The notes: generated by a model from the letters alone, not told the origin. DNA of 20,851 bases from a virus (IMGVR_UViG_3300031669_000287:1-20851), one strand, 5' to 3'; counted from the stretch's first letter, positions 1 through 20,851 are shown. Numbers and translations: made by a program.

Positions 1-1
1 G

Positions 2-88
2 TCGCCGGAATTTCCGACGGCCGAATTCGTCGAAAATCAACTTCTTCAAATTCCGGAATTTTCAAATTCTACTATTATAAACACTTAA
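2..88 (+). CDS. C-terminal end of an upstream gene (partial)
   Basis: A reading frame that is open from the window edge ends at TAA (86-88), eleven bases before the next ATG. It gives 28 residues. Its codons (CTT, CAA, CCG, GAA, GTC, ATT) match the habits of the genes around it, whereas the other two frames look less coding-like. The order of genes suggests a structural or tail gene, but the fragment is too short to identify. Only the C-terminus is present, so nothing can be said about function. Confidence 0.5.
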   Translation, partial: SPEFPTAEFVENQLLQIPEFSNSTIINT

Positions 89-98
89 AAATAAAAAA

Positions 99-410
99 AT
101 GAATTGCACTTGTTTTCAAGATCTTGGTTGTTTTCTTCCAAACGATCCGATTGATTTCGGTTTCACGGCTTTTGAAGCCGGCGATTTTACTTTCGAAGTC
201 ACCTATCGCGGACGAACCGAAAGGATCGTCAAAACTTTCGCTTTGAACGAACCGATCGTTCTTCCTTATACTTTTGACGAAGTCGGCGAAATTCAAATAA
301 AAATTCAAATTCCTTCAACGATCGCGGTTCCGATTTCCGGATTCAATTATTTGACTTCGATCGGCGGCGGTTGTGTTTTTGTTCTTTCCGGCGCTTCGCC
401 TTCTTGTTAA
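99..410 (+). CDS. small beta-rich, cysteine-bearing phage protein, probably tail or virion associated
   Basis: The product is 103 residues. The N-terminus carries a Cys cluster (MNCTCFQDLGCF), the middle is rich in alternating hydrophobic and charged residues typical of beta strands, and the end has two more Cys (GGGCVF and a terminal SC). No signal peptide or membrane segment is visible. The ATG follows an A-rich leader (taaaaataaaaaaATG), typical of this genome. It lies between the end of another gene and a membrane-protein gene, at the 3' end of a transcript closed by the terminator at 846-882. The Cys-rich start recalls the large tail-tip protein at 17908, so a small accessory virion or tail protein is a reasonable inference. 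I cannot name a family. Confidence 0.75.
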   Translation: MNCTCFQDLGCFLPNDPIDFGFTAFEAGDFTFEVTYRGRTERIVKTFALNEPIVLPYTFDEVGEIQIKIQIPSTIAVPISGFNYLTSIGGGCVFVLSGASPSC

Positions 411-427
411 TCTTTTAAATTTGTAAA

Positions 428-835: not shown

Positions 836-845
836 TTTTGCAATT

Positions 846-882: not shown

Positions 883-934
883 TCATGATTATTGAAATTA
901 TATTCTAAAAAGTATTGCGGAATCAAAAAAAGTC

Positions 935-961: not shown

Positions 962-974
962 AAAAACCAACAAA

Positions 975-1901: not shown

Positions 1902-1910
1902 ATATACAAC

Positions 1911-1947: not shown

Positions 1948-1970
1948 AAACCCAAAATCGAAAAGGAAAA

Positions 1971-2796: not shown

Positions 2797-3813
2797 ATGA
2801 AACAAGAAATCACAAATCAAACGAACAACGTAAACGCGGAAACGTTGAAAAAATATCTTCGCGCGGCGAATCTTGTCGGACATTTGACCGACGTTGAAGT
2901 CGATCAATTTATTCAAATTTCAACGGCCTTCGGCTTGAATCCTTTCAAGCGTGAAATATACGCTTCTAAATACGGAAGCAATTTTTCAATTGTGGTCGGT
3001 TATGAAACATATATCAAGCGCGCCGAAAGATCCGGTTTGTTGGCCGGTTGGAAAGTTACGACGGCCGGATCTGTAAACTTTAAAAATCCGGATCAAAGCG
3101 ACTTGAAAGCAATTATCACAATTCACCGGAAAGATTTCAAATTTGAATTCGTTCATGAAGTTTATTTTTCGGAATATTGCCAAAGAACAAAAGCCGGCGA
3201 CCTAACTTCGTTTTGGCGCGGAAAGCCGGTCACAATGATCAAAAAAGTTGCAATGTCACAAGGCTTCCGATTGTGTTTTTCTGACGAATTAGGCGGCCTA
3301 CCTTATACAAAAGAAGAAATCGGAAACGAAACGATCGACACGACGGCGACGGTAATTGAAGAAAACCCGGAAGAAATTATTCATTCGATTGACGATCAAT
3401 TCAAAGAAGCCGAAAAAATGATTGTTCAAGCAAAAGATCGCGAAGCAATCGTCAAAATTTGGAAAGGCTTTCCGGATCTTCAAAAAGAAGAAGATTTCAT
3501 TAAATTAGTAAAGGGCGAAAATGATCGTTTAATCAACGAAAAAAAGAATCTAATACAAGAAGCCGCCGAAGAATTAAAAGGCCCGGAAACGGAAGAAATA
3601 GACGTTCAAATCGTCGAAGGCGAAACGATTCAACTATCAACGCCGCGAATGTTTGTCAATTCCGTTCAATACGACGCAAAAGAAGCGATCTTCTTTATTA
3701 AAGAAATGAAAGACGAATCCGAAATCTTTGACTTTGTTCAAGAAGATAAAAGAACAACGGTCAACGAAACGGCAAAGCAAAGAATCGAAGAAATAACAAA
3801 CGACAAAAATTGA
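2797..3813 (+). CDS. recT: RecT/Bet-family single-strand annealing recombinase
   Basis: The product is 338 residues. Residues about 20-180 carry the signature stretches of the phage recombination protein Bet/RecT family: GLNPFKREIYASKYG, then FSIVVGYETYIKRAERSGL, then WRGKPVTMIKKVAMSQGFR and DELGGLPYTKEE. These proteins coat single-stranded DNA, anneal complementary strands and act in phage recombination-linked replication. Residues about 185-338 form an acidic, Glu- and Lys-rich helical extension with no recognised domain, which may contact SSB or a nuclease. The start ATG follows tcgaaaatcATG. Its stop overlaps an in-frame TTG of the next gene, but the likely next start is six bases further on. 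No exonuclease partner is visible in the window. Family assignment is firm and the role is known for the family. Confidence 0.95.
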   Translation: MKQEITNQTNNVNAETLKKYLRAANLVGHLTDVEVDQFIQISTAFGLNPFKREIYASKYGSNFSIVVGYETYIKRAERSGLLAGWKVTTAGSVNFKNPDQSDLKAIITIHRKDFKFEFVHEVYFSEYCQRTKAGDLTSFWRGKPVTMIKKVAMSQGFRLCFSDELGGLPYTKEEIGNETIDTTATVIEENPEEIIHSIDDQFKEAEKMIVQAKDREAIVKIWKGFPDLQKEEDFIKLVKGENDRLINEKKNLIQEAAEELKGPETEEIDVQIVEGETIQLSTPRMFVNSVQYDAKEAIFFIKEMKDESEIFDFVQEDKRTTVNETAKQRIEEITNDKN

Positions 3814-3818
3814 AAATC

Positions 3819-4214
3819 ATGAAAACGACATTATTGAAAAAAAGAATAATTGAAAAATTCGGATCGATCAACGCTTTTGCAAATCACCGAAAACAAGAAT
3901 TGAATTCTTGGACTATTATTCGCGCTTTAGACGGAACAATAAAAAAAGATCAAGAAGAACTTTTGAAAGTGATCAAAGACGGAATTCAAGTCTTGAACCC
4001 CGAAAAAGAAATCAAGACGGACACGCGCGAATTCATTCGAAGAACGATTTTGACCGAATTTTCAAGTTTTGCCGAATTCAATCGACAATTTCCGGAATTT
4101 TCGAAATCGTTTTTGTCGAACCTTATAAACGGAAAGAAAAAGATCCTTGACAAACGATCGCGAAGGCTTTTAAATGTCTGTTTTAATCTTTACGCAAAAA
4201 ACCCGGCAAAATGA
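3819..4214 (+). CDS. small protein with two similar HTH-like halves
   Basis: The ATG at 3819 is preferred over a TTG at 3810 that overlaps the recT stop. The product is 131 residues. Residues about 10-40 (IIEKFGSINAFANH to IIRALDGT) and about 77-106 (ILTEFSSFAEFNRQ to LSNLINGK) align at an offset of 66-67. Both have the pattern hydrophobic-hydrophobic-x-x-F-x-S-hydrophobic-x-x-F followed by a second helix and a small-residue-Gly turn, as in Cro/XRE-type helix-turn-helix units. A duplicated DNA-binding domain is the best reading. It shares an ATGA overlap (4211-4214) with the DUF1376 gene, so it may control or assist replication. The HTH call is by eye and moderate. Confidence 0.75.
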   Translation: MKTTLLKKRIIEKFGSINAFANHRKQELNSWTIIRALDGTIKKDQEELLKVIKDGIQVLNPEKEIKTDTREFIRRTILTEFSSFAEFNRQFPEFSKSFLSNLINGKKKILDKRSRRLLNVCFNLYAKNPAK

Positions 4215-4999
4215 AAAAGAATTCAAGAAACAAGGCGCCGGCCTTTCAGTTTTACGCGGCCGATTGGTTGACCGATACTTCGCTTCGATTGGTTTCGGCC
4301 GAAGCGCGCGGCGTTTGGATTGATCTTCTTTGTCATGCTTTTTTGTCGCCGGATCCGGGTTTTTTGATTGTCGCCGGTCAAATTTTAGACGAAAAAGGAA
4401 TTCGAACGCTTTCCGGATTGACGCCGAAAAGATTCAAAAAAGTCTTTCATGAATTGACGTCTTTCGGAATCATTAAACAAGACGCCGCCGGAAGGTTTTA
4501 TTCGAAAAGAATGACCGAAGACGCCCAACTTTCAAGGATAAGACGCGAAGCCGGATCAAAAGGCGGAAACCCTAATTTGATTAAAAAGGTTGCAATTTTG
4601 GATAAGCAAACCGACAACCAAAATCAAACCCCTTCTTCTTCTTCTTCTTCTTCTTCTTCAATTTCTATAATTAAAAAAAAATATATAAAAAAAGAAGAAT
4701 TTATTTTTGATCATGTTTTTCAAAAATACATTGAAGAAAATTGTCCGCGAATTGGATCTTTAAAAACTCAATTGACGCCGGAATTTTGCAAACGTCTTGA
4801 AAAAGAATTTGACATTGAAGAAGTGATCATGATTTTTGATCAAATGGAAAATTTTAGTAAATTAAACAAAAATTATTCGTCGGTATATTTGACCGCGAAA
4901 AATTGGTTGATAAAAAGAAAAGAAAATGAAAAAGATATTGAAAAACGAAATTCAAAAAACACAAAACCAACTTTCGAAGACAAACTTCGCGATTTCTAA
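4211..4999 (+). CDS. DUF1376-family replication-associated protein with a poly-serine linker
   Basis: The product is 262 residues. Residues about 8-110 match the DUF1376/YdaU type: PAFQFYAADWLTDTSLRLVS, EARGVWIDLLCHAF, then a winged-helix-like part ending in SKRMTEDAQLSRIRREAGSK and GGNPN. Members are encoded beside replication genes in phages and are thought to act as replication initiator or loader proteins. A linker with nine serines in a row (about residues 142-150), made by a TTC repeat, is followed by a basic stretch and a second helical domain (about 165-245). The poly-Ser tract and two A runs (4673-4681, 4687-4693) are places where slippage could truncate the protein. The 3' end overlaps the next gene by 74 bases in another frame. 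Confidence 0.85.
   Translation: MKKNSRNKAPAFQFYAADWLTDTSLRLVSAEARGVWIDLLCHAFLSPDPGFLIVAGQILDEKGIRTLSGLTPKRFKKVFHELTSFGIIKQDAAGRFYSKRMTEDAQLSRIRREAGSKGGNPNLIKKVAILDKQTDNQNQTPSSSSSSSSSISIIKKKYIKKEEFIFDHVFQKYIEENCPRIGSLKTQLTPEFCKRLEKEFDIEEVIMIFDQMENFSKLNKNYSSVYLTAKNWLIKRKENEKDIEKRNSKNTKPTFEDKLRDF
4633..4659 (+). repeat. (TTC)9 microsatellite inside the DUF1376-type gene
   Basis: Nine perfect TTC units lie in frame so that they are read as eight TCT codons plus one TCA, giving the serine linker. Changes in unit number would keep the frame and alter only linker length. Confidence 0.95.
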
Positions 5000-5792
5000 A
5001 AGGGACGAAATAAAAAAATCAATTCGAACCGATTTGAAAATTCGTGACATTGAAAGCGTTGAACCTATCAAACAAGCGCTTCGATATATTTTCGCCCTTG
5101 TAGGTTTAAGAACGGAACAAATTCCGGGCGACATTGAAAAGATTGTTTTAATAAACTTTATAAAAGATAACTTGAAAAATCATTCACCGGAAGAAATAAA
5201 ACTTTCTTTTGAAGTTGCCGTCAAAGGTGACTTCAAAACCGAATTGAATCACTACGGACACTTTTCCGCCCTTTATTTGTCACGCGTCTTCAACGATTAT
5301 CTTGATCACCGTCGGCAAATTGTCGCGGAAATGCAACGCGAAGACGCGGCCAAAGAATTGAAAGATCGCGAAGAATATAACAAACGGCCGGAAGTGATCG
5401 AAAAACACAACAAAAATTTCGATCACGGTCTTTTGACCGACTTTTTTAATCAATACAAAGAAAACGGATCAATCGACTTTGAATTGTTTCCGGTTTCAAT
5501 TGTTTTCAAAACTTTAAAAGAAAGACACGGATTTTTCAAGGATCTTTCAAAAGAAGAAATTCAAAAAATCACAACCGACGCCGAAAAAAGAACCGATTCC
5601 GAAATCAATCACCGACTTCATAAATTTGGATCGAAAGACGACAACGAATTTCGAAAAGTAATGAAGGAACAAGAATCGGCGACAATGAAGCGAAAAGACT
5701 TTCTTCGAAGGAATCAAAGAAAGATCGCGATCGAAAATCTTTTTGAAAGAATTATTCAAGAAAAAAAAGAATTAAAAGACTTCTTCAAATGA
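4926..5792 (+). CDS. helical protein, probable replisome-associated partner of the DUF1376 protein
   Basis: The product is 288 residues, all helical in character and highly charged. Residues about 47-130 (ALRYIFALVGLRTEQIPGD, then KLSFEVAVKGDF and HYGHFSALYLSRVFNDYLDHRR) form the most conserved-looking domain. I know this type from Bacteroidota phages and elements, next to DUF1376-type genes. The C-terminal half has long Lys/Glu helices (about 215-288). The ATG at 4926 is the only ATG near the 5' end of the frame, so a 74-base overlap with the previous gene is needed unless a non-ATG start is used. The stop overlaps the next ATG by four bases. A helicase-loader or replisome-organiser role is inferred from neighbours only. 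Confidence 0.8.
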   Translation: MKKILKNEIQKTQNQLSKTNFAISKRDEIKKSIRTDLKIRDIESVEPIKQALRYIFALVGLRTEQIPGDIEKIVLINFIKDNLKNHSPEEIKLSFEVAVKGDFKTELNHYGHFSALYLSRVFNDYLDHRRQIVAEMQREDAAKELKDREEYNKRPEVIEKHNKNFDHGLLTDFFNQYKENGSIDFELFPVSIVFKTLKERHGFFKDLSKEEIQKITTDAEKRTDSEINHRLHKFGSKDDNEFRKVMKEQESATMKRKDFLRRNQRKIAIENLFERIIQEKKELKDFFK

Positions 5793-6243: not shown

Positions 6244-6636
6244 ATGAATAAACACATAATCGCCGGCAACGTCGGCAACGATCCGGAAATCAAAAGACTT
6301 GAATCCGGAATGACAATCGCGAAACTTTCAATCGCGGTGAATGAATTCAAAAAAAACAAAGAAACCGGCGAATCGGAAAAATCGACTTTGTGGCTTAATG
6401 TCGTGGCTTTTGGGCGACTTGCGGAACTTTGCGAATCTTACGTCACAAAAGGAAAAAAGATCCTTGTCGTCGGAAAACTTTCAATTCGTGAATATATCGA
6501 CAAGGACGGCCTAAAAAAATATTTTACCGAAACGATCGCCGACGAAATTGAATTTTTGTCTTCACGAAACGAAGAACAAGAAAACGGATTATCTTCAAAA
6601 GTATTCGAAGAAGGCGAATACGATCTTCCGTTTTAA
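6244..6636 (+). CDS. ssb: single-stranded DNA-binding protein
   Basis: The product is 130 residues. It has the SSB OB-fold pattern: IIAGNVGNDPEIKRLESGMTI, then LSIAVNE, then STLWLNVVAFGRLAELCESYV and KGKKILVVGKLSIREYIDKDG. It ends in the short acidic tail ending DLPF that in bacterial and phage SSBs binds partner proteins. The protein is shorter than many bacterial SSBs because the linker is brief. It coats single strands during phage replication and would work with RecT. It closes the replication block and is followed by a weak hairpin and a new promoter. Confidence 0.95.
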   Translation: MNKHIIAGNVGNDPEIKRLESGMTIAKLSIAVNEFKKNKETGESEKSTLWLNVVAFGRLAELCESYVTKGKKILVVGKLSIREYIDKDGLKKYFTETIADEIEFLSSRNEEQENGLSSKVFEEGEYDLPF

Positions 6637-7073: not shown

Positions 7074-7730
7074 ATGAAAGAAAAAATTAAATTATTAGAA
7101 CTTTTTGCAGGATCAAGATCCGTCGGAAAAGTAGGGGAAAAAAAAGAAATGCAAGTTTTTTCGGTTGATTGGACTGAATACGAAAATATTGATTTGATTA
7201 TTGATATTGAAGACTTACAAACTTTCGACGTTCCTTTTATTCCTAATATTATTTGGGCAAGTCCGGATTGCAAAACTTATAGTATATCGGCAATTTCTAC
7301 ACATAGGAACGGCCAGGATCCGAAAACACAATACGCTTTAAAATGCGATAACACAAATAAACACTTTATAAATTTGATTAAAGAGTGGTTACAAATAAAC
7401 CCAAAATTAGTTTTTTTTATAGAAAATCCTCGCGGTATGCTTAGACACATGGACTTTATGCAAGAATTTAATCGGCATACAGTTTGGTATTGTCAATATG
7501 GGGACGATCGGGCAAAGCCTACTGATATTTGGACTAATTCAAAAACGTGGATCCCGCGTCAAATGTGTAAAAATTACAAGTACGACAAAGAGGGTAATAT
7601 AATTGATAAACATTGTCACCACGAAAGCGCAAGACGCGGCGCCAAAACAGGTACGCAAGGGAAAAAAGGATCTTATAACAGGTCTTTAATTCCTAACGAA
7701 CTATGTAATGAAATTTTAAACTCCATTTAA
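7074..7730 (+). CDS. cytosine-C5 DNA methyltransferase-like protein
   Basis: The product is 218 residues. LLELFAGSRSVG (residues 7-18) is the SAM-binding motif I. WASPDCKTYS (61-70) corresponds to motif IV, with Cys66 as the likely nucleophile in SPDC instead of the usual PCQ. FFIENPRG (114-121) corresponds to motif VI. CQYGDDRAKPTDIWTN (140-155) and the C-terminal GAKTGTQGKKGSYNRS followed by IPNELC are typical of a short phage family of such enzymes. It would methylate cytosine in phage DNA, perhaps to block restriction or as a first step in modification, and the target is unknown. No separate target-recognition domain is visible. Its codons (AGG, GGG, GTA, GAG, CAG) differ from the rest of the window, suggesting recent acquisition. 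Its leader carries AAAATCGAAAA. Confidence 0.8.
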   Translation: MKEKIKLLELFAGSRSVGKVGEKKEMQVFSVDWTEYENIDLIIDIEDLQTFDVPFIPNIIWASPDCKTYSISAISTHRNGQDPKTQYALKCDNTNKHFINLIKEWLQINPKLVFFIENPRGMLRHMDFMQEFNRHTVWYCQYGDDRAKPTDIWTNSKTWIPRQMCKNYKYDKEGNIIDKHCHHESARRGAKTGTQGKKGSYNRSLIPNELCNEILNSI

Positions 7731-7742: not shown

Positions 7743-8195
7743 ATGAAAAAAGAATTCTTAATTGACTACAAAGGCGACTTCAATCAAACGGAAACCGACG
7801 AACAAACCGGAAGACAATTCGTTGACGTCTTATCAAATAAATACGGACAAATAAAAATCACCGGAACCGACAAAGATTTGAATTTGTTTCTTTTGGAGGT
7901 TGAAAAAACTTCGCCGAATTTTAAATTGATCGGCGTCACCGATCTTTCGGAAGTTATCGCGATTATAGACGTTCACGAAGAAAAAGCGATTTCCGATTCG
8001 ATCTTTTCGATTCGATCCGATCATGATTCCGAACAAATCGGAACCGCGACCGTTTCTTCAATCGTTCAATTGATCAAAGATTCGGGCGACGACGAAAGCG
8101 AAGTGATTCGATTCTTGACAACCGCCGGCGAATTTCGGACTTGGATCAACAAAGAAGATCTTCAAAAATACATTCAAAAAAATATATTAAAATGA
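7743..8195 (+). CDS. hypothetical acidic protein, 150 residues
   Basis: The product is acidic with mixed alpha and beta character: FLIDYKGDFNQTETDE at the start, KYGQIKITGTDKDLNLFLLEVEK and LIGVTDLSEVIAIIDVHEE in the middle, then an Asp-rich SDHDSEQIG, and a C-terminal helical part with FRTWINKEDLQKYIQKN. Codon use returns to the phage norm straight after the methyltransferase gene. The stop overlaps the next ATG by four bases. I recognise no family. Confidence 0.75.
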   Translation: MKKEFLIDYKGDFNQTETDEQTGRQFVDVLSNKYGQIKITGTDKDLNLFLLEVEKTSPNFKLIGVTDLSEVIAIIDVHEEKAISDSIFSIRSDHDSEQIGTATVSSIVQLIKDSGDDESEVIRFLTTAGEFRTWINKEDLQKYIQKNILK

Positions 8196-8380
8196 AAAAA
8201 ATCTTCAATTTAGAAACTAACTTGAACGGACTTCAATTGACTTTGATTTCAATTCAAGAACAAATGAAATTCGAAAATCAAAAATCTTTGATTTCAGTTC
8301 ATGCCGAAAAAAATGTCGCCGATCTTCAAAACGTCGCCGATCAATTAAAAACAGAAATAAAAAAACACTTTAAAAATTAA
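8192..8380 (+). CDS. hypothetical small helical protein, 62 residues
   Basis: The start chosen is the ATG in the ATGA overlap at 8192. An in-frame ATG at 8141 would put 51 more bases inside the previous gene. The product (MKKIFNLETNLNGLQLTLISIQ at the start) is a single long helix with heptad-like leucines and an ADLQNVADQLKTEIKKHF end, consistent with a coiled coil. No function can be named. Confidence 0.65.
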   Translation: MKKIFNLETNLNGLQLTLISIQEQMKFENQKSLISVHAEKNVADLQNVADQLKTEIKKHFKN

Positions 8381-8383
8381 AAA

Positions 8384-9019: not shown

Positions 9020-9082
9020 ATATAAGACACTAAAAAGAAAACTAAGTATATACAAACCTAAAATCGAAAAAACACGCTTAAA

Positions 9083-9469
9083 ATGAAGAATTTCGAAGAA
9101 ATAACGAAACCGTTGACGCCGGACGAACAAAATATCGCGGCGATCATTTGCAAACGTTTTAAAAAGAAACCCGGAAAAATAAACATTGTTACGAACAAAC
9201 AAATCGTTCGGGCCTTGAAAATAAAATGTCAAATTGAAATCACCGAACCGCGAATTCGAAAAATCATTCAATTCATTCGATCCGAAGGACTTTTGAACGG
9301 ATTGATTGCGACTTCTTCCGGCTATTGGTTGACGCGAAACGTTGACGAATTGAAATCTTGGATTGATTCAATGATCGAACGAGAAAACGCGATCCGATCT
9401 TCACGTCACGCCGGCGAACGCGATCTTCGATTTTTGATCAATGAAACGGATCAAGGCAAACTTTTTTAA
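9083..9469 (+). CDS. winged-helix-like phage protein, 128 residues
   Basis: The middle of the product (NKQIVRALKI, then ITEPRIRKIIQFIRSEGLLNGLIATSSGYWLTRN in consecutive pieces, about residues 43-103) has the helix, recognition helix and wing order of a winged helix-turn-helix. The tail DELKSWIDSMIERENAIRSS is the helical end typical of this kind of phage protein, which is common in Bacteroidota phages. A DNA-binding regulator of late genes is a fair inference from its place just before the packaging genes. It has its own leader with AAAATCGAAAA (9060-9070). No promoter could be made out in the 63-base spacer. Confidence 0.8.
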   Translation: MKNFEEITKPLTPDEQNIAAIICKRFKKKPGKINIVTNKQIVRALKIKCQIEITEPRIRKIIQFIRSEGLLNGLIATSSGYWLTRNVDELKSWIDSMIERENAIRSSRHAGERDLRFLINETDQGKLF

Positions 9470-9539
9470 TTTGTCCGGAAAAATTACGATCTTTGTTGAT
9501 CCGGCGCAAAAGGAATCGCGCGCAATTAAGCCGATCAAA

Positions 9540-10073
9540 ATGAAGAAAACAACAACGAAGAAGCCGACAAATAAGCCGGTGACAAAGAAAAAAACAACTT
9601 CGACAAGAAGAACAAACGCCGACAAGAAACGGATCGCGAACAAAATTTTCGATCTTTACGGATCCGGCGACTTCACCCTTGAATCTTGTTGTCAAGAAAA
9701 CGGAATCACTTCAAGAACCCTTCACAATTGGACGGATTCGATTTCCGAAATTTCCGCTTCTTTTAAAAAGACAAAAGAAGTCAACGCGAAGTCGAACAAA
9801 GAAAAGGTTCGCGACGTTGCCGTTGACGGCTTAAAAAGATTATTGACCGGCTTTTTCATTGAAGAAGTCGAAGTCGAAGAATTCAAAGACAAGAACGGCG
9901 TTTTAATTTCAACGAAGATCAAGAAGAAAAAGAAATATATTCAACCGGCCGTCGCGGCGATTATTTTCGCTTTGAAGAATACGGATCCGATTAATTGGAA
10001 CGAAGACAAATTCGCGGAACAAGAAGGCGAAGAACAAGTTTTCAATATAGGCGGACAAACCGTTAAATTTTAA
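9540..10073 (+). CDS. terminase small-subunit-like HTH protein
   Basis: From ATG 9540 the product is 177 residues: a Lys/Thr-rich basic tail (about 2-25), then an HTH (about 28-62, IANKIFDLYGSGDFTLESCC, then ENGITSRTLHNWTDSI), then a helical part with VRDVAVDGLKRLLTGF and the end PAVAAIIFALKNTDPINWNE. This order is typical of phage small terminase subunits, which recognise phage DNA for packaging. It lies two small genes before terL. An in-frame ATG at 9441 would add 33 residues and overlap the previous gene by 29 bases. The added part has phage-like codon use, so the longer form cannot be excluded. Confidence 0.75.
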   Translation: MKKTTTKKPTNKPVTKKKTTSTRRTNADKKRIANKIFDLYGSGDFTLESCCQENGITSRTLHNWTDSISEISASFKKTKEVNAKSNKEKVRDVAVDGLKRLLTGFFIEEVEVEEFKDKNGVLISTKIKKKKKYIQPAVAAIIFALKNTDPINWNEDKFAEQEGEEQVFNIGGQTVKF

Positions 10074-10155: not shown

Positions 10156-10364
10156 AAAATTTGAAACAAAATCAAGAATCATTCGAAAAGTTAAGAAGAT
10201 CAATTTTGTCGGAAGAATTCAAAAATTCAGACCGAAGAAAGAAAAATATAAAACCTTTTTTTATTGGATCGGTGATCGCGATCTTCTTTTTTATTTGGGC
10301 GCTTGGAAAATTGATCGACTTTCTTTTCGTTGGTTTTTTTGAATTTATCAAAATGATTTTTTAA
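10152..10364 (+). CDS. small membrane protein upstream of terL, 70 residues
   Basis: The start is the ATG in the overlap with the microprotein. A longer frame from 10101 would run inside it. Residues 1-34 are hydrophilic and strongly basic. Residues about 36-70 are hydrophobic (FFIGSVIAIFFFIWALGKLI, then DFLFVGFFEF), giving one or two membrane passes at the C-terminus. The stop TAA shares a base with the terL ATG (TAATG). Two small membrane proteins in tandem could be a holin/antiholin-like pair, but no endolysin is nearby. Confidence 0.65.
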   Translation: MKNLKQNQESFEKLRRSILSEEFKNSDRRKKNIKPFFIGSVIAIFFFIWALGKLIDFLFVGFFEFIKMIF

Positions 10365-11641
10365 TGAACGTACTTTTCGAACCGCACGAAAAACAAAAAG
10401 AATATATTGAAGCGATTCTTTCTGATAAATTCCGTTGTTTAATGTACGGCGGCGCGGCCGGCGGCGGAAAGACTTTCGTTTCGCTTGCGGTCTTCGTTTT
10501 ACTTGCGAAAGTTTATCCGGGTTCGCGTTGGTTCGTTGTCCGCGAATCACTTCCGACATTGAAGCGGACGACGATTCCGTCTTTCTTGAAACTTTGTCCG
10601 CGTCAATTTATTCGATCTTATAATCAAACCGATCAAATTGTCACCTTTAGAAACGGAAGTCAATTGACGTTCTTTCCGGAAAATTACAACGCCGATAAGA
10701 ACTTGACAAGGTTTGACGGAATTGAAGCAAACGGATTTTTGATCGAAGAAGGTCAAGAAATAAACCGAAAGACTTTTGAAAAATGTAAACTTCGCGCCGG
10801 GCGTCACATATTGCCGGGCGTTCAAAAGCAACCGAAGCCGATTATTTTGATCACTTGCAACCCTTCAAATAATTGGACGAAGAAAGAATTTCACGAACCT
10901 TTCATCGAAGGCCGGCTTTCAAAAGATTATTTTTATTTAAAAGCGACAATGTCGGACAATCCTTCACTTCCGGAAGACTATCTTGAAGGACTTGAAAACC
11001 TTGACGAAGTCACAAAGGCCGTATTCGTTCGCGGCGATTGGAACGTTCTTGACGTTGATCGTCCCTTCATTTATGCTTTTGACAAGAAGAAGACCGTCTT
11101 CAAAGGCCTTGAACTTGATCAAAGCGAACCGATCATTCTTTCTTTTGATTTCAATGTCGATCCAATTACTTGTATTGCCGGACAATCTTTCGACGGAACA
11201 ATTCGGATCTTGAAAGAATTCCGTCTTCGTAATTCCGATATATACGCGCTTTGTGGTGAAATTTCCGCCGCGTTTGGTGATCATTATTTCATCGTGACCG
11301 GTGACGCTTCCGGAAATGCAAGATCGGCAATGACAAAAGGCGCCTTAAATTATTATACTATTATTCGCGACGAACTTGATCTTTCAAAGGTTCAATTCCG
11401 CGTCCCTTCCGTCAATCCTTCGATTCGGAATTCGCGCGTTCTTTGCAATGCAATTTGTGCAAATCACAAAGACTTCTTGATCGATTCGTCTTGTCATTAC
11501 TTGATCGAAGACGTTGAAAGCGTTGAAGCAACGGAAAGCGGCGATATTGACAAAGGAAAGGACGCGCGGAAAAGTCACCTTCTTGATTGCTTCCGGTATT
11601 TCCTTTGGACTTTTCACAATGACTTCATTAAATTTCGATAA
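10364..11641 (+). CDS. terL: terminase large subunit (packaging ATPase and nuclease)
   Basis: The product is 425 residues. The N-terminal ATPase has Walker A GGAAGGGKT at residues 29-37 and Walker B FLIEEGQEI at about 125-133, with the catalytic Glu at 128 or 129. ITCNPSNNW at about residue 160 fits the coupling motif. The C-terminal RNase H-like nuclease has acidic residues at about 262 (LSFDFNVDP), 313 (VTGDASG) and 407 (KSHLLDCFRY). It cuts concatemeric DNA and pumps it into the prohead. Unusually, no portal gene follows. The next gene is a tail chaperone-like one after a promoter-like sequence. Confidence 0.95.
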   Translation: MNVLFEPHEKQKEYIEAILSDKFRCLMYGGAAGGGKTFVSLAVFVLLAKVYPGSRWFVVRESLPTLKRTTIPSFLKLCPRQFIRSYNQTDQIVTFRNGSQLTFFPENYNADKNLTRFDGIEANGFLIEEGQEINRKTFEKCKLRAGRHILPGVQKQPKPIILITCNPSNNWTKKEFHEPFIEGRLSKDYFYLKATMSDNPSLPEDYLEGLENLDEVTKAVFVRGDWNVLDVDRPFIYAFDKKKTVFKGLELDQSEPIILSFDFNVDPITCIAGQSFDGTIRILKEFRLRNSDIYALCGEISAAFGDHYFIVTGDASGNARSAMTKGALNYYTIIRDELDLSKVQFRVPSVNPSIRNSRVLCNAICANHKDFLIDSSCHYLIEDVESVEATESGDIDKGKDARKSHLLDCFRYFLWTFHNDFIKFR

Positions 11642-12521: not shown

Positions 12522-15500
12522 GTGGCGGTTAAAAATGTAATTTTTAGACTTCAAGCGGAAACCGGAAATCTTCGGACGGAACTTGATCAAATAAAAAAGA
12601 AAATCGGCGGAATCGGCGACGAAACAGAAAGAACCGAAAAGCAATTCGGCGGCTTGACCGGGACGATCAAGAAAGTCGGCCTTGCGCTTGCCGGCCTTGC
12701 AATAGGCCGCGAAATCTTTCAATTCGGAAAGTCGGCAATCACCGCCGCCGCCGATTTTGAAGCGCTTGAAATCGCTTTTACCACTTTTTTAGGATCAAGC
12801 AAAGAAGCAAAGAAAGTTTTGCAAGATCTTGAAGATCTTTCCGTTTCAACTCCTTTCACGCCGGAACAAGTACAAAACGCCGGAAAAGCGCTTCTTGCGT
12901 TTGGCGTCGAAGTTGACAACCTTCAACCGTCTTTGAAGAAGATCGGCGACCTTTCGGCCGGAACCGGAAAAGACTTCAATCAACTTGCGGTTATTTTTGG
13001 AAAAGCAAAAGTTCAAGGAACACTTTTCGCCGAAGACATTAATCAATTGACCGAAGCCGGAATTCCGGTAATTCAAGAATTCGCCAAACAATTAGGCGTT
13101 TCCGAAGGACAAGTCAAAAAATTAGGATCCGAAGGAAAGATTTCTTTTGCGAATCTTGAAACGGCGTTCGCGGATTTGACCGGTGAAGGCGGAAAATTCT
13201 TCGGCTTAACCGACGCGCTTGCCGGATCAACTTCCGGAAGGCTTTCAACGCTTGAAGGAAACTTCGGACTTTTGAAGCGTGAAATCGGAAACGGACTTCT
13301 TCCGATTTTTGAATCGCTTTTAAATGTAGCTTTTAAGTTAGTTGACGTCTTTTCAAACTTTGGGACTTTTATTGATTCAAACCGCGGCGCGGTCGCCGCG
13401 TTTGCTTCGACGATCGGAATTCTTGTCGGCGCTTTAACACGTCAAAAACAAATATCGCTTTTAAATACAATCCAAACGCAAGCGGCAACGTTTGCGGAAA
13501 AAGCGGCAAGGATCGCCCGAATTGCAAGGATCACGGCAACGCGAAACTTGACAAAGGTCACACAAGCGAATTCAATCGCTTCGAAAGCGTCAACGATCGC
13601 TTCTTTGACGGCAACGTCGGCCGTTCGGGCCTTTAGCGCGGCGATCAAAGCGAATCCGATCGGCTTACTTATCACCGGGATTTCGCTTGCGGCTTCTTTG
13701 TTTCTTGATTTCGGCGACGCGGCCGAAGACGCGGCCGGCGCGACCGGCGATCTTGGCGACGAAACGACAAAACTTTCAAGGAAACAAATCGCTTTGAATA
13801 CGGTACGGGACGAAACAATTCGAAGAACGGCCGACGAAGCCGCCGAATTGAAACTTTTGATCAATCAAGTCAAAAACACAAATCAAACGCAACAAGAACG
13901 CGGCGATATTATTGACACTATAAATTCAAAATATGGTTTAACTCTTAAAAATCTTTCCGACGAAAAGAAATTCATTGAACAACTTGACGTCGCGTATTCA
14001 AATTTTGTTGAAACATTGAAGAAAAAAATCTTTCTTGAAGTTAAACAAGAAGAACTCACAACTTTAATAAAAGAACAAATCACGCTTGAAGAAGAACTCG
14101 CGGACGTTGTCGGGCCGCAAGCCGGAAAAGACTTCGGAAAACGCGCCGGCGAAACTACGGCGTTATTATTAACGACGCCGGCCGAACAACTTGGCGCGTT
14201 TGAAAAGGATTTCGCCGAATTGAAAGCGCTTGCGTCAAAATCACAAGAAGAAATTGACGAAATTTTCAAAGATAAGACGTTCACAGACGGCGGCGGAGGA
14301 AAATCTGTTTTTGATTTTTCGATCACAAAACGCGATATTGAAGAATTTGCGGCTTTTAGCGAAAAGCAAAAGAAGCAATTTGAAGAAAACGCGCGCGCGA
14401 CAAGAAAGGAAATCAACGCCCGGGCGTCTGATTTTTCAAATATAAACAAGATTGAAGTTGAAGAAGTTTTCTTGTACGATCCGGCAACCTTTGAAGAAAT
14501 ATTTGTTCCGGCCGCCGAAGGCGAAGCGAAAGGAATCGGGCAATTAAGGCAAGAATTAAACGGGGTGAATGAAGCAATCGCCGCGCTTGAAGGCGACTTC
14601 GAAAATTTTGATTTCGGCGAAGCGTTCGGCGGATCCGGCGGCCCAAAAATCACGGCGTCGAAAATCAAATCGATTCTTCTTGATCTTCAAACCGAACTTC
14701 GAAAGGCGCAAGAAAAAACAAGAGAAAATCAAATTTCTTTCATTGATCCGGTGACGCTTGACGACGAAATTGACAAACTAAAAAAAGCGGCCGTTCAAGC
14801 GAAACTTATATCGGCTAACGTTGTCGCGGATCGGATCAAGACGGCAAAGAAGGCCGGACAATTAGGCGCGAACGAAGCGAAACTTTTCGCGCAAATAAAC
14901 GCCGAACAACAACTTCAAATCGAAGAAAAACTTCAAGAATCAATTGCCGACTTGCGCGACAAAGCGAAGAAGAAAAGATCGAAGACCGAATTCGATATTG
15001 AAACAACCGAACAAACGATCGAATTCGAAACGACGGAACTTGACGACTTCAAATTAATTGAAGAAGAAAAGAAGAAAATAAAAGAACAATTAAAAACCGT
15101 TACGGACAAAGAAGAACGTCAAGCGCTAAAAGAACAACTAAAAGGAATAAAAGACGCGGAAATCGCTTCTTTGACGGCTCAAACGGACTTTAAGATCAAG
15201 CAAATCGAACGCGAACGCGACTTCGAACTTGACAACGCCGCCTTGACGGCCGAAGAAAGAATATTGATTGAAAAAAACGCCGATCTTGAAATCCTTCGGC
15301 TTCGTTCGGCTTTGGGCGAAAAAACCGACGATCTAAACGAAAGCGGAACGGAAGCGGCAAAGAAAGCCGAAGCCGATAAAAAACAAGTAATTCTTGACGG
15401 AATCGCCGACGTCCTAAACGCGACGAAAGACTTGATCGATCAAATTATCGAACTACAAATCGCCGAAGTTGAAAACGCAATTTCAGCGCAAGAAAAGCGC

Positions 15501-16109
15501 GTCGAAGCGGCGACGGAACTTGCGGAAAAAGGGAACGCCGAACTTCTTGAAGCAGAAGAAAGACGCCTTGAAGAATTAAACAAAAAGAAAGCGAAATTTG
15601 TTCGAACTCAACAAGCGCTTGCGGCGACCGAATTAATTATCAATTCAGTCGTTGCCGTTTCAAAAGCGGCGGCCGAAGGCGGCGCGGCGGCGCCGTTTAC
15701 AATCGCGGCGACATTGATCGCCCTTGCGGCCGGCTTAGTTGCCGCAAAAGCGCAAGCAAGCGCGGCGGCCGGCGGCTTTGCTTCCGGCGGTTACACCGGT
15801 GACGGCGGAAAATATCAATCGGCCGGAATTGTTCACAAAGGCGAATTCGTTATGACAAAAGAACAAACGTCAAAATTTCGACCGTACTTCGAAGAAATTC
15901 ACAAAGGACGGAATCCTTTCTTGACGGAAGGATTGAACGAAAAATTTATATTTGTAAATAATTTTGGTTTCGAATCAAAACTTGATCGGATTGAAAAAGC
16001 GATTTCAAATCAAGATCGAATGAAAGTGAATATTGACGAACGCGGAATCAACGCGATTGTTTCAAATATTAGTTATAAACAACAACGAATCAAAAACCGG
16101 GCGCGATAA
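12522..16109 (+). CDS. tape measure protein, 1195 residues
   Basis: The best start is GTG (MAVKNVIFRLQAETGN), unusual here as nearly all other genes use ATG. Residues about 1-50 form a coiled coil. About 70-270 is the conserved tape measure domain (FEALEIAFTTFLGS, then FTPEQVQNAGKALLAFG, LAVIFGKAKVQG, DINQLTEAGIPVIQEFAKQL). Hydrophobic segments lie at about 287-303 and 380-397. Long helices and coiled coils fill 400-1030. An Ala-rich hydrophobic part (about 1034-1085) precedes GFASGGYTGDGGKYQSAGIV and HKGEFVMTKEQ, the usual end of Bacteroidota tape measure proteins. It sets tail length and passes into the host at infection. At about 0.15 nm per residue the tail would be roughly 180 nm long, so a long-tailed phage. 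The stop shares a base with the next ATG. Confidence 0.93.
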   Translation: MAVKNVIFRLQAETGNLRTELDQIKKKIGGIGDETERTEKQFGGLTGTIKKVGLALAGLAIGREIFQFGKSAITAAADFEALEIAFTTFLGSSKEAKKVLQDLEDLSVSTPFTPEQVQNAGKALLAFGVEVDNLQPSLKKIGDLSAGTGKDFNQLAVIFGKAKVQGTLFAEDINQLTEAGIPVIQEFAKQLGVSEGQVKKLGSEGKISFANLETAFADLTGEGGKFFGLTDALAGSTSGRLSTLEGNFGLLKREIGNGLLPIFESLLNVAFKLVDVFSNFGTFIDSNRGAVAAFASTIGILVGALTRQKQISLLNTIQTQAATFAEKAARIARIARITATRNLTKVTQANSIASKASTIASLTATSAVRAFSAAIKANPIGLLITGISLAASLFLDFGDAAEDAAGATGDLGDETTKLSRKQIALNTVRDETIRRTADEAAELKLLINQVKNTNQTQQERGDIIDTINSKYGLTLKNLSDEKKFIEQLDVAYSNFVETLKKKIFLEVKQEELTTLIKEQITLEEELADVVGPQAGKDFGKRAGETTALLLTTPAEQLGAFEKDFAELKALASKSQEEIDEIFKDKTFTDGGGGKSVFDFSITKRDIEEFAAFSEKQKKQFEENARATRKEINARASDFSNINKIEVEEVFLYDPATFEEIFVPAAEGEAKGIGQLRQELNGVNEAIAALEGDFENFDFGEAFGGSGGPKITASKIKSILLDLQTELRKAQEKTRENQISFIDPVTLDDEIDKLKKAAVQAKLISANVVADRIKTAKKAGQLGANEAKLFAQINAEQQLQIEEKLQESIADLRDKAKKKRSKTEFDIETTEQTIEFETTELDDFKLIEEEKKKIKEQLKTVTDKEERQALKEQLKGIKDAEIASLTAQTDFKIKQIERERDFELDNAALTAEERILIEKNADLEILRLRSALGEKTDDLNESGTEAAKKAEADKKQVILDGIADVLNATKDLIDQIIELQIAEVENAISAQEKRVEAATELAEKGNAELLEAEERRLEELNKKKAKFVRTQQALAATELIINSVVAVSKAAAEGGAAAPFTIAATLIALAAGLVAAKAQASAAAGGFASGGYTGDGGKYQSAGIVHKGEFVMTKEQTSKFRPYFEEIHKGRNPFLTEGLNEKFIFVNNFGFESKLDRIEKAISNQDRMKVNIDERGINAIVSNISYKQQRIKNRAR

Positions 16110-17875
16110 TGGCAATTAAAATCGAATTCAATGGAAATCTTTTGACCGGCCGAATTGACGGAACGGATCAATTCGAAGTCACTATCGAAAATAAAACCGA
16201 CGACAATCGGATCGCGAAATCGTTTTCAAGTGAATTGACATTCTATGACGACGGATTCGACTTGATCAAATCCGTTTTGATTGACAATCCTTCCGGTTTT
16301 ACGAATAGTATAAACGTTAAAGTTTTTGACGATTGTTGCAAACAACCGGTTTTCGAAGGAATAATTCGCGGCGATTCAATTGATTGGTGCGATCCGATTT
16401 GCGCGGTTTCGGCAAATATTATCGAATCCGATCCGACAATCGATTGTATAAAAAGCACGTTAATTTACGACGATTTCAACGGATTTCTTCAAGTTGAAAG
16501 ACCGGCGATTCGTTATTGTTTGGAATTGCGCCCGGCTTTTACACAAATTGCGTTGATTTGGTTCGCTTATATTATCAATATACTTTTGACGGCGATATTG
16601 ATTCCGATTATAGCCGTTATTTTTGTGATCTTCGGTCTTATATATATTATTTGTTCAATTGTTTCGGCGATTGCTTCGGTGATTCCGGGCGTTGACGGCC
16701 CGGATTGCAATTCCGGCTTCACGAATCCGATCAATATAATTAACAACCTTCTTGACGCTTTGGATTCAATACAAAATCAACTTGTCGCGTGCGGTCGATT
16801 TCACCCTTCGCCGTATGTCCGCGACTATATCGAAAATGTATGTTTAAAATGCGGATTGACTTTTCAATCTTCAATTTTAAACGATCCGGCTTCGCTTTAT
16901 AATAACATGGTCTATTTTTCCGCCGAAGTCGAAAAGGGCCGGAAGAACGATTCAACCGATTTTTCAATGATTAAAGGAAACGAACCGATTTTGACTTTGG
17001 AATTCTTCCTTTCCGATTATGTCGCGCCGCTTTTCAACGCAAAATGGGAAGTCGTGAACGGCGTTTTAATTCTTGAAAGACGCGATTTTTTCCAAAATAC
17101 GAACGTTTGGGTTTCTTCGGACATTCTTCAACAAGATCAAAGATTGATCGACGGCGTTATTTGTTATAATTGGATTGACGACGATCGCGCGGCTTATGGG
17201 CGCTTTGAATATACGAAGGACGGTCAAGAATATATCGGCAACGAAGCCGGCAATCGCTTTAATGATATTATTGAATGGAATTCGCCGCCGAATCCGATTC
17301 AATCCGGCGAATATAAATTTATATCACCTTCGGCGGCGGCAAGATTCCGCGACGACGGAATTGAAGTCGATGTCCTTTCGTTTTTCTTGGATCTTAGTCC
17401 GGTTTTAAATGCTCTTTTCGGCGGCGCTTTGTCTGAATGGCGCTATGTTCTTTTAATGAATCAATCGACGGCGTTCGCGCCGAAGTTTTTGATCGTTGAA
17501 GGATCGACGCCGTCCGTTTGGAAAAACGATCGCGTAAAAAGGAATTATTCGAATACTTTAACCGGCGGCCCGGTTTACGATTCCGCCGGAAATTACGTCG
17601 ATGAATTAGAACGATTCAATTATCCTCTTTGGTTCAAAGAAAATTTCGACAATAATTTATATACTAACTTTCACTATTTAAAAAATCCGCGCGACACGAA
17701 TTCTCAATCCTTCGATTTTGAATTTGAATTTGTTTTCACTTGCGAAGAATACAACGATTTTTCATTCGGAAAAACGGTCGAAATTGTGAAAAACGGAACG
17801 ATTGTCAACGGAATCGTTCAAAGAATTAAAGTTGATTTTGTAAAACGAACGATAAAAGTCAACGGAATTGTTTAA
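16109..17875 (+). CDS. distal tail or baseplate protein with an internal hydrophobic segment
   Basis: The product is 588 residues. The N-terminal 140 residues are beta-rich with many Cys (DDCCKQPVFEG, DWCDPICAVS, TIDCIK). Residues about 147-193 are one strongly hydrophobic stretch (for example LLTAILIPIIAVIFVIFGLI), long enough for two membrane passes. The rest is beta-rich and aromatic, with FLSDYVAPLFNAKWEVVNGVL followed by ILERRDFF recalling tail hub or tail-associated proteins, and a C-terminal repeat of VNGIV. TAATG coupling to the tape measure gene places it at the tail-tip position (distal tail or hub). I infer a hub or tail-tip role. The membrane-like segment is unusual for such proteins. 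Confidence 0.75.
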   Translation: MAIKIEFNGNLLTGRIDGTDQFEVTIENKTDDNRIAKSFSSELTFYDDGFDLIKSVLIDNPSGFTNSINVKVFDDCCKQPVFEGIIRGDSIDWCDPICAVSANIIESDPTIDCIKSTLIYDDFNGFLQVERPAIRYCLELRPAFTQIALIWFAYIINILLTAILIPIIAVIFVIFGLIYIICSIVSAIASVIPGVDGPDCNSGFTNPINIINNLLDALDSIQNQLVACGRFHPSPYVRDYIENVCLKCGLTFQSSILNDPASLYNNMVYFSAEVEKGRKNDSTDFSMIKGNEPILTLEFFLSDYVAPLFNAKWEVVNGVLILERRDFFQNTNVWVSSDILQQDQRLIDGVICYNWIDDDRAAYGRFEYTKDGQEYIGNEAGNRFNDIIEWNSPPNPIQSGEYKFISPSAAARFRDDGIEVDVLSFFLDLSPVLNALFGGALSEWRYVLLMNQSTAFAPKFLIVEGSTPSVWKNDRVKRNYSNTLTGGPVYDSAGNYVDELERFNYPLWFKENFDNNLYTNFHYLKNPRDTNSQSFDFEFEFVFTCEEYNDFSFGKTVEIVKNGTIVNGIVQRIKVDFVKRTIKVNGIV

Positions 17876-17907
17876 TAAATTGAATAAATTTGTAATAAAT
17901 AAAATAT

Positions 17908-20778
17908 ATGCTTTTATCGAATTGTATTGATCAAATAAATAACAATCTAATTTTTGAAAATTGTTGTTGTGAAATATCTTGTCAAATCTTTAAAGATCCG
18001 ACGCAAACAACAAGACAATTGACTTCACTTGAATTAATTCTTCCGGCCGGACAAACTTCTTCAATTATTTCAATGAATGGCGTTCCTTATACAACGCCAA
18101 ACGGCGCGCCCTTGCCGGTTCCTATAAATAACGCAAATAGTTTAGATTTTATTATTTCGATTTGTGGATCTCAAATTGGAAACATTGATTCGCTTGAACT
18201 TCGCGCCGATTGGCGACGCGGCGGCCAAACCGGAACGGACGTCTTCTTTTTCAACGTTGAAACCCTTCAGCAGTCTTTGTATTGGACGCCGCCGCTTTCC
18301 GGAATTCAAGATCTTGGAACTATTCCGATCGGCGCTTCTTCGATTCTTTCTTTTGACTTTACAAATCCGACAATTTGCGACGTTGATATTTCTTTCACGC
18401 AAACGCCGATTTCGGCCGGCGGTTGTGACGACGTTGTCGAAAATCAATTGAACCCGACAACGGTTCCGTCCGGTGCGACGGTTCCGTTTTCGTTTACTTG
18501 GACGCCTTCCGTTTCCGGATCCATTTCATGTAAAATCGACGCTTTTGGTTGTGGCGGCGCCGGAATCGGATCCGTTCGACTTACCGGATCCGGCGTCGCG
18601 GCTTCCGGTTGCTTGACTTGTCTTAACGTTAAATTGAAGACTGAAAACAATTATTTGATTGAAGCGCCGGGACTTTGTTCCGATTATTCCGGCGGCGCGT
18701 ATTACGCTTCAAGCGCGATCGGTGAACGAAAGATCATGCGCTTTTCGCTTTATTACTTGCCGGGACTTACGAACGGCCTTGAATTATGGTTGAACCCGGA
18801 ATTCTTCGGCGACGTTTGCAACTTCGCGTCTTATTATCCTTCGGGAATGATTGATTCGGCGCCGCCGGTTGCGTTTTATATTCAATATTTTTCCGGAATC
18901 GGATCCGCTTCAATGACATTGATCGGCGCGGCCGGCGCGACAAATAGTCAAAGAAATCTTGAAGCGACTTTCATTGAAGGCGCGAATCCGGGCGAATTTG
19001 TTGTCGAATTGTCGTATATAATGACCGAAGATCTTGACAATTGGTTGACGTCTTCAATCAATACGAACAACGATCGTCTTCTTTCTTCTTCCGTTTACGA
19101 ATCGAATCAATTGACTTTGTCGGTTCCTTCAATTTATAATCAAGTGCGAAAAAGTTGTTTTTTGTTTTACCTTCTTGATCCTTCGACACTTGTTCCGGAT
19201 CCTTTATCCGGCGCCCTTGTTCCGTTTACTTGTCCGGAAACTTATTCCGTCGCGCAAACTTCAAGATTCTTCAACAAGGGACTTTTCGGCGGCGTTTCTG
19301 AATTTATTAATCCGACTTTAATCTTGTCGCGTAACGGAACCGTTGTCACCGACCTTTCTTCGCTTACAAATACGGACGTCGAATTTCAAATTGATTCAAT
19401 AAATGTCGGCGGCGTCAACAACGTTGTTTTTAATTTGATCGACGCTTCACAAACGAATAATCTTGTCGATTTTTTCACAAATTACGATTCAAGCCGGGCC
19501 GAAGTGATCACCGATCCTTCAATCGGCGTTCTTGACAATCACTTGAAGACGCCTTCGATCGCGCCGGCGATTCTTTCCGGATCAATCTATTCAACGTCGG
19601 CAATCGTCGGAAACGACGTCCTTGTCGGTCAAGAATTTTATTTGATCGCGATCGTTTATTCAAAAGGCGACACGCCTTCTTCAAATATTGTTAACTCTTT
19701 TATTTTCGGAAAATATATCGTCACGAATACGCCCGGAACTTTTGACGTTTGTTGTCCTTTGGAAATAACGTCCGATTTTTCAGATTATAATAAAACTTGG
19801 CGAACGAATTATTTCACGCCGACAATGAAAGAAAGAATTCGTCATGATTTGAAAATTTGCGGCGGCGATTTTGCAAATATTTGTCTTGTAGATCTTGGAC
19901 TTCCGCCGGAAAAGGTCGGCGATTGGATCAATTTTGTTTCGACGATTGATTTCCGAATTCTTCGCGAAGTCGTTGATTATCCGGCGCCCGGTCAAACTAC
20001 TTCTTTTATTTTTCAAGAATATACGGTTCAAAGAAACACGGCTTTTCCGGGAAATTGGTTCCTAAACGGACAAACCGTCTTGAATGTTTCCGACAACGGC
20101 TCGAACGCGGACAAACCTTGTATTTTAACCGAATGGAACGGCCGCGTTCGTTATGAAGAAAACCTTTCGCCGCCTTTGGTTTTGGTAGCAAATAACGCGA
20201 CGCCCTTTTCAAGAATTCCGGCCGGCGGACTTTCTTCCGTTTATATTTCGACAAATAATATATCTTTTGATTGGGCGAATGAAGATATTATATTTGAATA
20301 TCAAATAAAATTCGACGCTTCGCTTCTTGTCGGCGGCCCTTTTAATGTTATTCAAGTATTCCGTCCGAAAATAAAACCTTTTGAATTTGAAGGAAATGCG
20401 CCGCGCGGACTTGACGAAATTGATTTCTTTGCGCCGGATCCGATCGATCCGTCCCTTCCGGGCGTTCAAATATTCGGCGCGATTTGTTCGGACGAATTTC
20501 CGTTTTTGTTCGTTAGAACGCATAAATTGCCGGGCGACGTGACATTGAATCAAATCGCGACGATCGATTTCTTTCCGGTCGGAATCGGAAACCTTGAAGA
20601 AGAAGAAGCGTATCTTTCGACGGCTTCGCTTACTTTAAGTCAACTAATTTCGCCGTATATTTACGACGTTGATATTGAATTCGACGCCGTGACGAACTTC
20701 GCTTTCTTCAAACTTGACTTGTCCGCTTTAGGCGCCGGAAATTATCAAGTTTGTTCAATTGCTTTGCCTAAAAACTAA
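17908..20778 (+). CDS. large tail-tip or receptor-binding structural protein, 956 residues
   Basis: The product is beta-rich throughout, Ser/Thr/Asn/Gly-rich and without membrane segments, as expected of tail-tip, baseplate or fibre proteins. The N-terminus carries a Cys cluster (ENCCCEISCQIF). Residues about 135-230 (DLGTIPIGASSILSFDF, TNPTICDVDISF, then VPFSFTWTPSVSGSISCKI, ending LTGSGV) follow the plan of an ASH/Hydin-type immunoglobulin-like domain. Later parts contain several similar beta blocks and about ten more Cys. It comes right after the tail hub-like gene, and another tail-type gene starts four bases after its stop. A leader (aaatttgtaataaat) is A/T-rich. Receptor contact is plausible but not shown. 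Confidence 0.8.
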   Translation: MLLSNCIDQINNNLIFENCCCEISCQIFKDPTQTTRQLTSLELILPAGQTSSIISMNGVPYTTPNGAPLPVPINNANSLDFIISICGSQIGNIDSLELRADWRRGGQTGTDVFFFNVETLQQSLYWTPPLSGIQDLGTIPIGASSILSFDFTNPTICDVDISFTQTPISAGGCDDVVENQLNPTTVPSGATVPFSFTWTPSVSGSISCKIDAFGCGGAGIGSVRLTGSGVAASGCLTCLNVKLKTENNYLIEAPGLCSDYSGGAYYASSAIGERKIMRFSLYYLPGLTNGLELWLNPEFFGDVCNFASYYPSGMIDSAPPVAFYIQYFSGIGSASMTLIGAAGATNSQRNLEATFIEGANPGEFVVELSYIMTEDLDNWLTSSINTNNDRLLSSSVYESNQLTLSVPSIYNQVRKSCFLFYLLDPSTLVPDPLSGALVPFTCPETYSVAQTSRFFNKGLFGGVSEFINPTLILSRNGTVVTDLSSLTNTDVEFQIDSINVGGVNNVVFNLIDASQTNNLVDFFTNYDSSRAEVITDPSIGVLDNHLKTPSIAPAILSGSIYSTSAIVGNDVLVGQEFYLIAIVYSKGDTPSSNIVNSFIFGKYIVTNTPGTFDVCCPLEITSDFSDYNKTWRTNYFTPTMKERIRHDLKICGGDFANICLVDLGLPPEKVGDWINFVSTIDFRILREVVDYPAPGQTTSFIFQEYTVQRNTAFPGNWFLNGQTVLNVSDNGSNADKPCILTEWNGRVRYEENLSPPLVLVANNATPFSRIPAGGLSSVYISTNNISFDWANEDIIFEYQIKFDASLLVGGPFNVIQVFRPKIKPFEFEGNAPRGLDEIDFFAPDPIDPSLPGVQIFGAICSDEFPFLFVRTHKLPGDVTLNQIATIDFFPVGIGNLEEEEAYLSTASLTLSQLISPYIYDVDIEFDAVTNFAFFKLDLSALGAGNYQVCSIALPKN

Positions 20779-20782
20779 AAAA

Positions 20783-20851
20783 ATGAATTATCAAATAAAT
20801 AATACTATTTTTTGCGATCTTGACGCTTCCGGCTTGCCGATCGGTCAAGGT
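20783..20851 (+). CDS. N-terminal end of a further structural-type gene (partial)
   Basis: An ATG with a typical A-rich leader (aactaaaaaaATG), four bases after the previous stop, opens a frame of 23 codons to the window edge. It begins MNYQINNTIFCDLDASG. The codon use and the Cys in the first residues resemble the tail-tip gene before it, so another tail or fibre component is likely. Only the start is visible. Confidence 0.6.
   Translation, partial: MNYQINNTIFCDLDASGLPIGQG

Follow-up and report, generated by a model that had tools for sequence, protein, structure and literature searches.

We found that a virus fragment from IMG/VR, IMGVR_UViG_3300031669_000287:1-20851 (a linear contig of 20,851 bp; the window, meaning that whole stretch), has lost nearly every copy of the word pairs GAG/CTC and CAG/CTG, and that it belongs to a wide phage family in which many members lack whole 3-mers or dinucleotides. 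The loss is extreme on both strands and occurs both inside and between codons, the lost words switch between lineages, unrelated phages show it as well, and substitutions that change the words are fewer than at random. We read this as lasting purifying selection on double-stranded DNA against very short words, the likeliest agents being restriction-type host defences met by Bacteroidota phages, an account to which we give about an even chance.

The original prediction held that these four words are strongly depleted in every reading position except in one gene, and the counts bore out the depletion. With base composition as the expectation, GAG occurred 6 times vs 277 expected, CTC 19 vs 213, CTG 14 vs 219, and CAG 24 vs 269, the observed/expected (O/E) ratios under a first-order Markov model being 0.03, 0.10, 0.12, and 0.25, respectively. 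The loss was similar across all three codon phases, and the 840 bp of intergenic DNA contained no GAG, CTC, or CTG and a single CAG. The avoidance proved to be wider than the four predicted words, as CCA (30 vs 262 expected), GATG (2), CATC (4), AGCT (1), and CTAG (0) were scarce too.

Codon usage in the window was extreme. With the methyltransferase gene described below left out, Glu was encoded by 527 GAA and 1 GAG (GAA 99%), Gln by 237 CAA and 4 CAG (CAA 98%), and Leu by 256 CTT, 179 TTG, 2 CTC, and no CTG. Such figures favor an adaptation of codons or codon pairs, or an avoidance of RNase sites in phage mRNA. We applied a codon-preserving shuffle (300 shuffles), in which each amino acid's synonymous codons were exchanged only between its own positions and which had been named in advance as the test that could overturn the claim of more than a tRNA or codon preference. 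Junction-spanning GAG was found 3 times vs 110 in the shuffles (O/E 0.03), CTC 15 vs 116 (0.13), CTG 12 vs 122 (0.10), and CAG 14 vs 122 (0.12), with z from -13 to -16 and none of the 300 shuffles as low as observed. This result strongly favors the predicted avoidance across codon borders and rules out codon preference alone.

A portal scan gave 80 loci forming one wide family, mostly fragment contigs, of which near-identical ones are not independent. Their 3-mer divergence from base composition was bimodal, with 18 ordinary (normal) loci at 0.03 to 0.07 bits, 62 restricted loci at 0.21 to 0.50 bits, and none between. The restricted genomes had several vocabularies, lacking GAG/CTC with AAG kept (the window type), AG/CT, CG, CA/TG, or AG/CT plus GAC/GTC. 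Relatives with terminases at 81 to 99% identity shared the vocabulary of the window, whereas two loci at 71% identity (L011 and L012) had another one, in which CTT and GATC were low and TGG and CCA were not. On the portal tree (midpoint root), normal and restricted members were interleaved; the vocabulary state must have changed 10 or more times and the normal or restricted status 3 or more times, and the CG-free state appeared in two separated groups. Below, L labels denote loci and G labels genomes (G003 = L026-L027, G004 = L028-L029, G006 = L032-L033, G012 = L123-L124, G019 = L133-L134, G022 = L137-L138, G033 = L151-L152, and G034 = L153-L154).

For each genome, expected counts were obtained by back-translating its proteins, with two normal members of the family supplying the codon use, and avoidable copies were counted relative to the fewest copies permitted by any synonymous coding. 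Across vocabularies, 90 to 98% of the avoidable copies were gone from both strands, including GAG/CTC in G003 (98%), AG/CT in G011 (92%) and G017 (94%), CG in G034 (96%), CA/TG in G033 (96%), and GAG/CTC (94%), CAG/CTG (94%), and GATG/CATC (96%) in the window; in two normal genomes, removal was near zero for most main words. In many genomes, 4-mers resembling classical restriction sites were exactly zero, including CTAG, AGCT, CCGG, and CGCG, as well as GATC (0 vs 122 expected in G022), ACAG/CTGT (0 vs 221 in G004), and CCAG/CTGG (zero in both G013 and G021, 0 vs 236 in the latter). The contexts of GAG in the window, of GAG in G003, and of CT in G011 were uniformly near empty, which argues for a loss of the short words themselves and not of a sum of many longer sites, although intermediates described below lose TGAG first. 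As a separate observation, the major capsid gene cluster in G033 and G019, and in G033 also cluster 12, a structural neighbor, exceeded the remaining genes 2.3 to 2.5 times in avoided words; expression-driven codon use or recent exchange is a possible cause.

These measurements also bear on the level at which the words are read. Codon adaptation would confine the bias to in-frame codons, but the loss extends to junctions and intergenic DNA. RNA-level avoidance would remove only the mRNA-sense word, but the reverse complement was lost to a comparable degree (GAG 0.01 and CTC 0.03 of expectation in G003; CAG and CTG each 0.06 in the window), although the + strand carries every gene of the window. 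This strand symmetry led us to reject RNA-level avoidance, and together with the loss in three phases and between genes it leaves the codon or RNase-site explanation very improbable. Each word disappears along with its reverse complement even though transcription runs one way, so the target is likely double-stranded DNA, so that of the DNA or RNA level allowed by the original prediction the former stands and the latter is disfavored. A few words were strand-asymmetric in genomes other than the window; in G034, for example, avoidance on the coding strand was asymmetric for CCC (0.10 of expectation) vs GGG (1.30).

Extreme context-dependent mutation, arising during replication or repair in the host or the phage or from deamination or damaged bases, with no selection on words, would likewise reach both strands, the whole genome, and intergenic DNA. 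It would suit the shift of the whole vocabulary beyond a few words (CG up to 2.2, TA down to 0.4) and the shifted protein composition of the CA-free L111, where Gln was roughly halved (125 of 6,217 codons vs 267 of about 6,200 in L101). However, one-base contexts cannot clear both CTN and NCT (N, any base), nor Arg CGN by transitions with the proteins unchanged, and such losses were found: in the AG-free L042, Leu CTN was at about 1% and NCT at 0 to 1%, and Arg CGN was at about 5% and 3% in the CG-free L060 and L112, respectively. The CA-free L111 had Thr ACA at 0 of 405, Ser TCA at 0 of 455, and Leu CTG and TTG together at about 0 of 546. Destruction of words by mutation also predicts common word-changing synonymous differences between close relatives, but those changing hard words were mostly at 0.1 to 0.3 of the random rate and those changing broader word sets at 0.5 to 0.8, with tiny counts in the closest pairs and with branches shared among pairs; a mutation bias that never creates the avoided words would be compatible with this rarity. 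Neither a loss limited to synonymously removable words nor frequent word-changing differences was seen. Moreover, the zeros are too sharp for mutation (TGAG 0 of 45 expected beside AGAG 20 of 65 in L171), and no phage DNA polymerase was recognized among the window proteins in Pfam and PHROG searches. We thus favor selection over mutation, because the CTN, NCT, and Arg CGN losses go beyond single-base context mutation and word-changing synonymous differences are rare; the mutational account is unlikely, though we would not call it negligible.

Unrelated phages showed partial versions of the pattern with the same words lost, which points to an outside agent and not to a feature built into one phage family. 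L161, with a terminase at about 22 to 24% identity to the portal family, had 11 GAG/CTC vs 156 expected and also missed AGCT and CATG. Its family passes from ordinary to restricted members at about 80% terminase identity, and in intermediates TGAG is gone first (0 of 45 and 0 of 68), then GAG/CTC, with the other 3-mers far less affected, as they were in L172, where the loss was essentially confined to GAG/CTC (26 vs 287). Of two further unrelated phages, L194 had lost essentially only GAG/CTC (18 vs 206) and L193 was CG-poor. CTAG was missing or almost so in many otherwise ordinary phages, i.e., L164 and most loci of L190-L247.

The exempt gene of the prediction proved to be the one below, given with a cluster of avoided words inside it.

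7074..7730, + strand: C5-type DNA methyltransferase-like gene (phrog_757, 3.4e-22)
7383, 7429, 7590, and 7721 (span 7383..7723): cluster of GAG/CTC sites inside this gene, 4 of the 25 sites remaining in the window

With 2 GAG, 2 CTC, 2 CTG, and 5 CAG, this gene takes up 3% of the window but accounts for 11 of the 63 copies of the four words, and its density of avoided words is 3.5 times the genome mean. It is not fully ordinary, however, since its 218 codons carry 4 GAG/CTC vs about 15 expected from the scaled genome-wide expectation. Methyltransferases also ranked with the genes where avoided words were densest (3.6 times in G036), as though recently acquired, and the nearest viral-contig relative of the window gene was found on the unrelated phage L161, at 49% identity. 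Deamination of 5-methylcytosine made by a phage C5 methyltransferase was ruled out as a cause, as only 3 of 33 relatives had a PF00145 match and the codon pattern was wrong.

The remaining genes of the window, called by a simple open-reading-frame rule, are given below.

99-410, 428-835, 1971-2752, 3810-4214, 4926-5792, and 7743-9469, + strand: conserved early genes of the portal family
2797..3813, + strand: RecT/Bet-like single-strand annealing protein (Pfam RecT, 9.7e-26; NCBIfam bet_lambda)
4211..4999, + strand: replisome organizer-like protein (phrog_13246, 2.5e-7)
6244..6636, + strand: single-strand DNA binding protein (Pfam SSB, 2.7e-29)
9441..10073, + strand: terminase small subunit (phrog_309, 5.2e-15)
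10364..11641, + strand: terminase large subunit (phrog_2, 4.7e-30; Pfam Terminase_3)
12522..16109, + strand: tail tape measure protein (Pfam TMP_3, 1.4e-24; phrog_9959, 9e-67)
16109..17875, + strand: tail-region gene, cluster 1, kept in 28 of the 28 portal-family genomes compared
17908..20778, + strand: tail-region gene, cluster 2, kept in 28 of the same 28 genomes

Judging from its predicted tape measure protein, the window is a siphovirus fragment. Related tape measures occur in isolated phages, among them Cellulophaga phage phi39:1 and phages of Riemerella, so that the host is likely a member of the Bacteroidota. Among the conserved early genes, matches were found to phrog_26016 and phrog_2113, both families of unknown function. 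The portal of the window had no relative in the phage collection, and scanning the window for Rfam families and tRNAs gave no matches.

If selection is at work, a host DNA-recognizing factor of restriction type, presumably a nuclease or similar agent reading 2 to 3 bp in its putative host, would select phage genomes without its word. The purge would be stepwise: hard 4-mers (CTAG, AGCT, GATC, CATG, TGAG, and others) would go to zero first, whole 3-mers would follow, beginning with GAG/CTC in two lineages unrelated to each other, and in the extreme lineages the last to be lost would be entire dinucleotides (AG/CT, CG, or CA/TG). The purged words depend on the lineage, presumably owing to differing hosts, and methyltransferase genes appear to be gained and lost in the same phages, as would be expected of a second escape route. 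Between the two causes originally proposed, nuclease escape remains the best reading, with a candidate host factor as the agent, although the words are shorter than any restriction site known to us, and mutational bias is disfavored by the codons and the synonymous differences. The zero 4-mers, the CCAGG exemption described next, and the word-rich methyltransferase genes all fit a pressure of restriction type.

Although CAG/CTG was lost in almost every other context, CCAGG/CCTGG was enriched 1.7 to 2.7 times in five genomes, which belong to two vocabulary types (observed/expected: G003, 65/26; G004, 85/31; G006, 105/42; G012, 46/17; and G022, 59/34). This word is the Dcm/EcoRII site, whose methylated base is the C of CAG, so that putative CCWGG (W, A or T) methylation may protect it. 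A bolder proposal, which we put forward tentatively as somewhat less likely than not, is that a widespread, undescribed surveillance of Bacteroidota reads 2- to 3-bp words (GAG/CTC, AG/CT, CG, or CA/TG, depending on the host), that CCWGG methylation protects CAG/CTG, and that phage families rewrite their genomes and switch vocabulary with the host.

In a rival explanation, clustered regularly interspaced short palindromic repeats (CRISPR) systems of the hosts would select against protospacer-adjacent motifs (PAMs) of 2 to 4 nt, and the length of PAMs, the effect on both strands, and the host specificity all fit, but many words are gone together from one genome, CG and CA/TG are not known to us as PAMs, and CRISPR gives no reason for the zero 4-bp palindromes or the CCAGG exemption. 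We consider PAM avoidance unlikely, even though a weaker PAM depletion has been reported in phages (PMC4246573).

A phage-made factor directed against a short word in host DNA, with the phage keeping its own genome free of that word, would account for lineage-specific words and the near-total purge, and normal relatives would be without the factor. However, among 28 genomes (23 restricted and 5 normal), we failed to find any gene that every restricted member had and every normal member lacked, the single-strand DNA binding protein (SSB) cluster coming nearest with 13 of 23 and 0 of 5. In addition, unrelated phages whose replication genes differ have lost the same word, and the leftover forced sites would destroy the phage itself, which makes this self/non-self trick quite improbable. 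Among the same 28 genomes, the restricted full genomes were one-directional and the five normal ones were not, but normal members of a second family are one-directional as well, so that one-strand gene order is at most a correlate. Several ordinary members (L145-L150, L135-L136, and L141-L142) had larger genomes of 36 to 40 kb, with the early genes lying on the opposite strand; restricted members were mostly 31 to 35 kb, a few up to 39 kb.

Bacterial DnaG primases initiate at trinucleotides, for example CTG, CTA, or CCC. An avoidance of these host initiation sites would invoke an enzyme that reads 3 nt of DNA, and CTC, CTG, CTA, and CCC are all lost in window-like vocabularies. It leaves the CG- and CA-free relatives unexplained, however, and losing primase sites brings no evident gain; we give it very little credence.

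Several points weigh against restriction-type defences as the agents. We know of no restriction enzyme that reads 2 or 3 bp alone. The 449 AG sites left in the AG-free L042, at least 283 of them unavoidable, and the 25 GAG/CTC sites that the window still has imply that a single site cannot be lethal each time. Although CTAG (0) and AGCT (1) in the window look like orthodox Type II avoidance, its main lost words are non-palindromic 3-mers, and GATC, CCGG, and CGCG, which are read by common restriction systems, are enriched there (2.8, 5.4, and 5.2 times). Neither the window nor its nearest relatives show the CCAGG exemption, and two scans of GTDB genomes, with the window's terminase large subunit and portal, gave no host. 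Finally, in a published survey, nearly all avoidance concerned sites of orthodox Type II systems and not those of Type I or IIG (PMC6286503).

The pattern resembles known systems in part. Restriction-site avoidance in phages (PMC6286503) also acts on the DNA of both strands and can fully remove 4-bp words such as CTAG, GATC, and AGCT from DNA phages, but it concerns orthodox Type II sites, whereas here whole 3-mers and dinucleotides are lost, mostly non-palindromic and varying within a family. PAM depletion (PMC4246573) likewise involves short, host-dependent words measured with codon bias controlled, but with one known motif per CRISPR type, in contrast to many words lost together with up to 98% of the avoidable copies gone. 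The near loss of one dinucleotide in the CG-free L060 and L112 recalls the CpG suppression of vertebrate RNA viruses and small DNA viruses (e.g., PMC7879557), which have other hosts, whereas in these double-stranded DNA phages AG/CT or CA/TG may go instead. A literature search found nothing equivalent, and to our knowledge the loss of whole 3-mers or dinucleotides from DNA phages, with the word differing by lineage, has not been described before. Under either cause, the word loss can be measured in data already at hand and put to the test. A mutational origin would make it one of the strongest known context biases; if selection is responsible, the lost words would read out host recognition directly, and phage genomes could reveal unknown defence systems and predict hosts.
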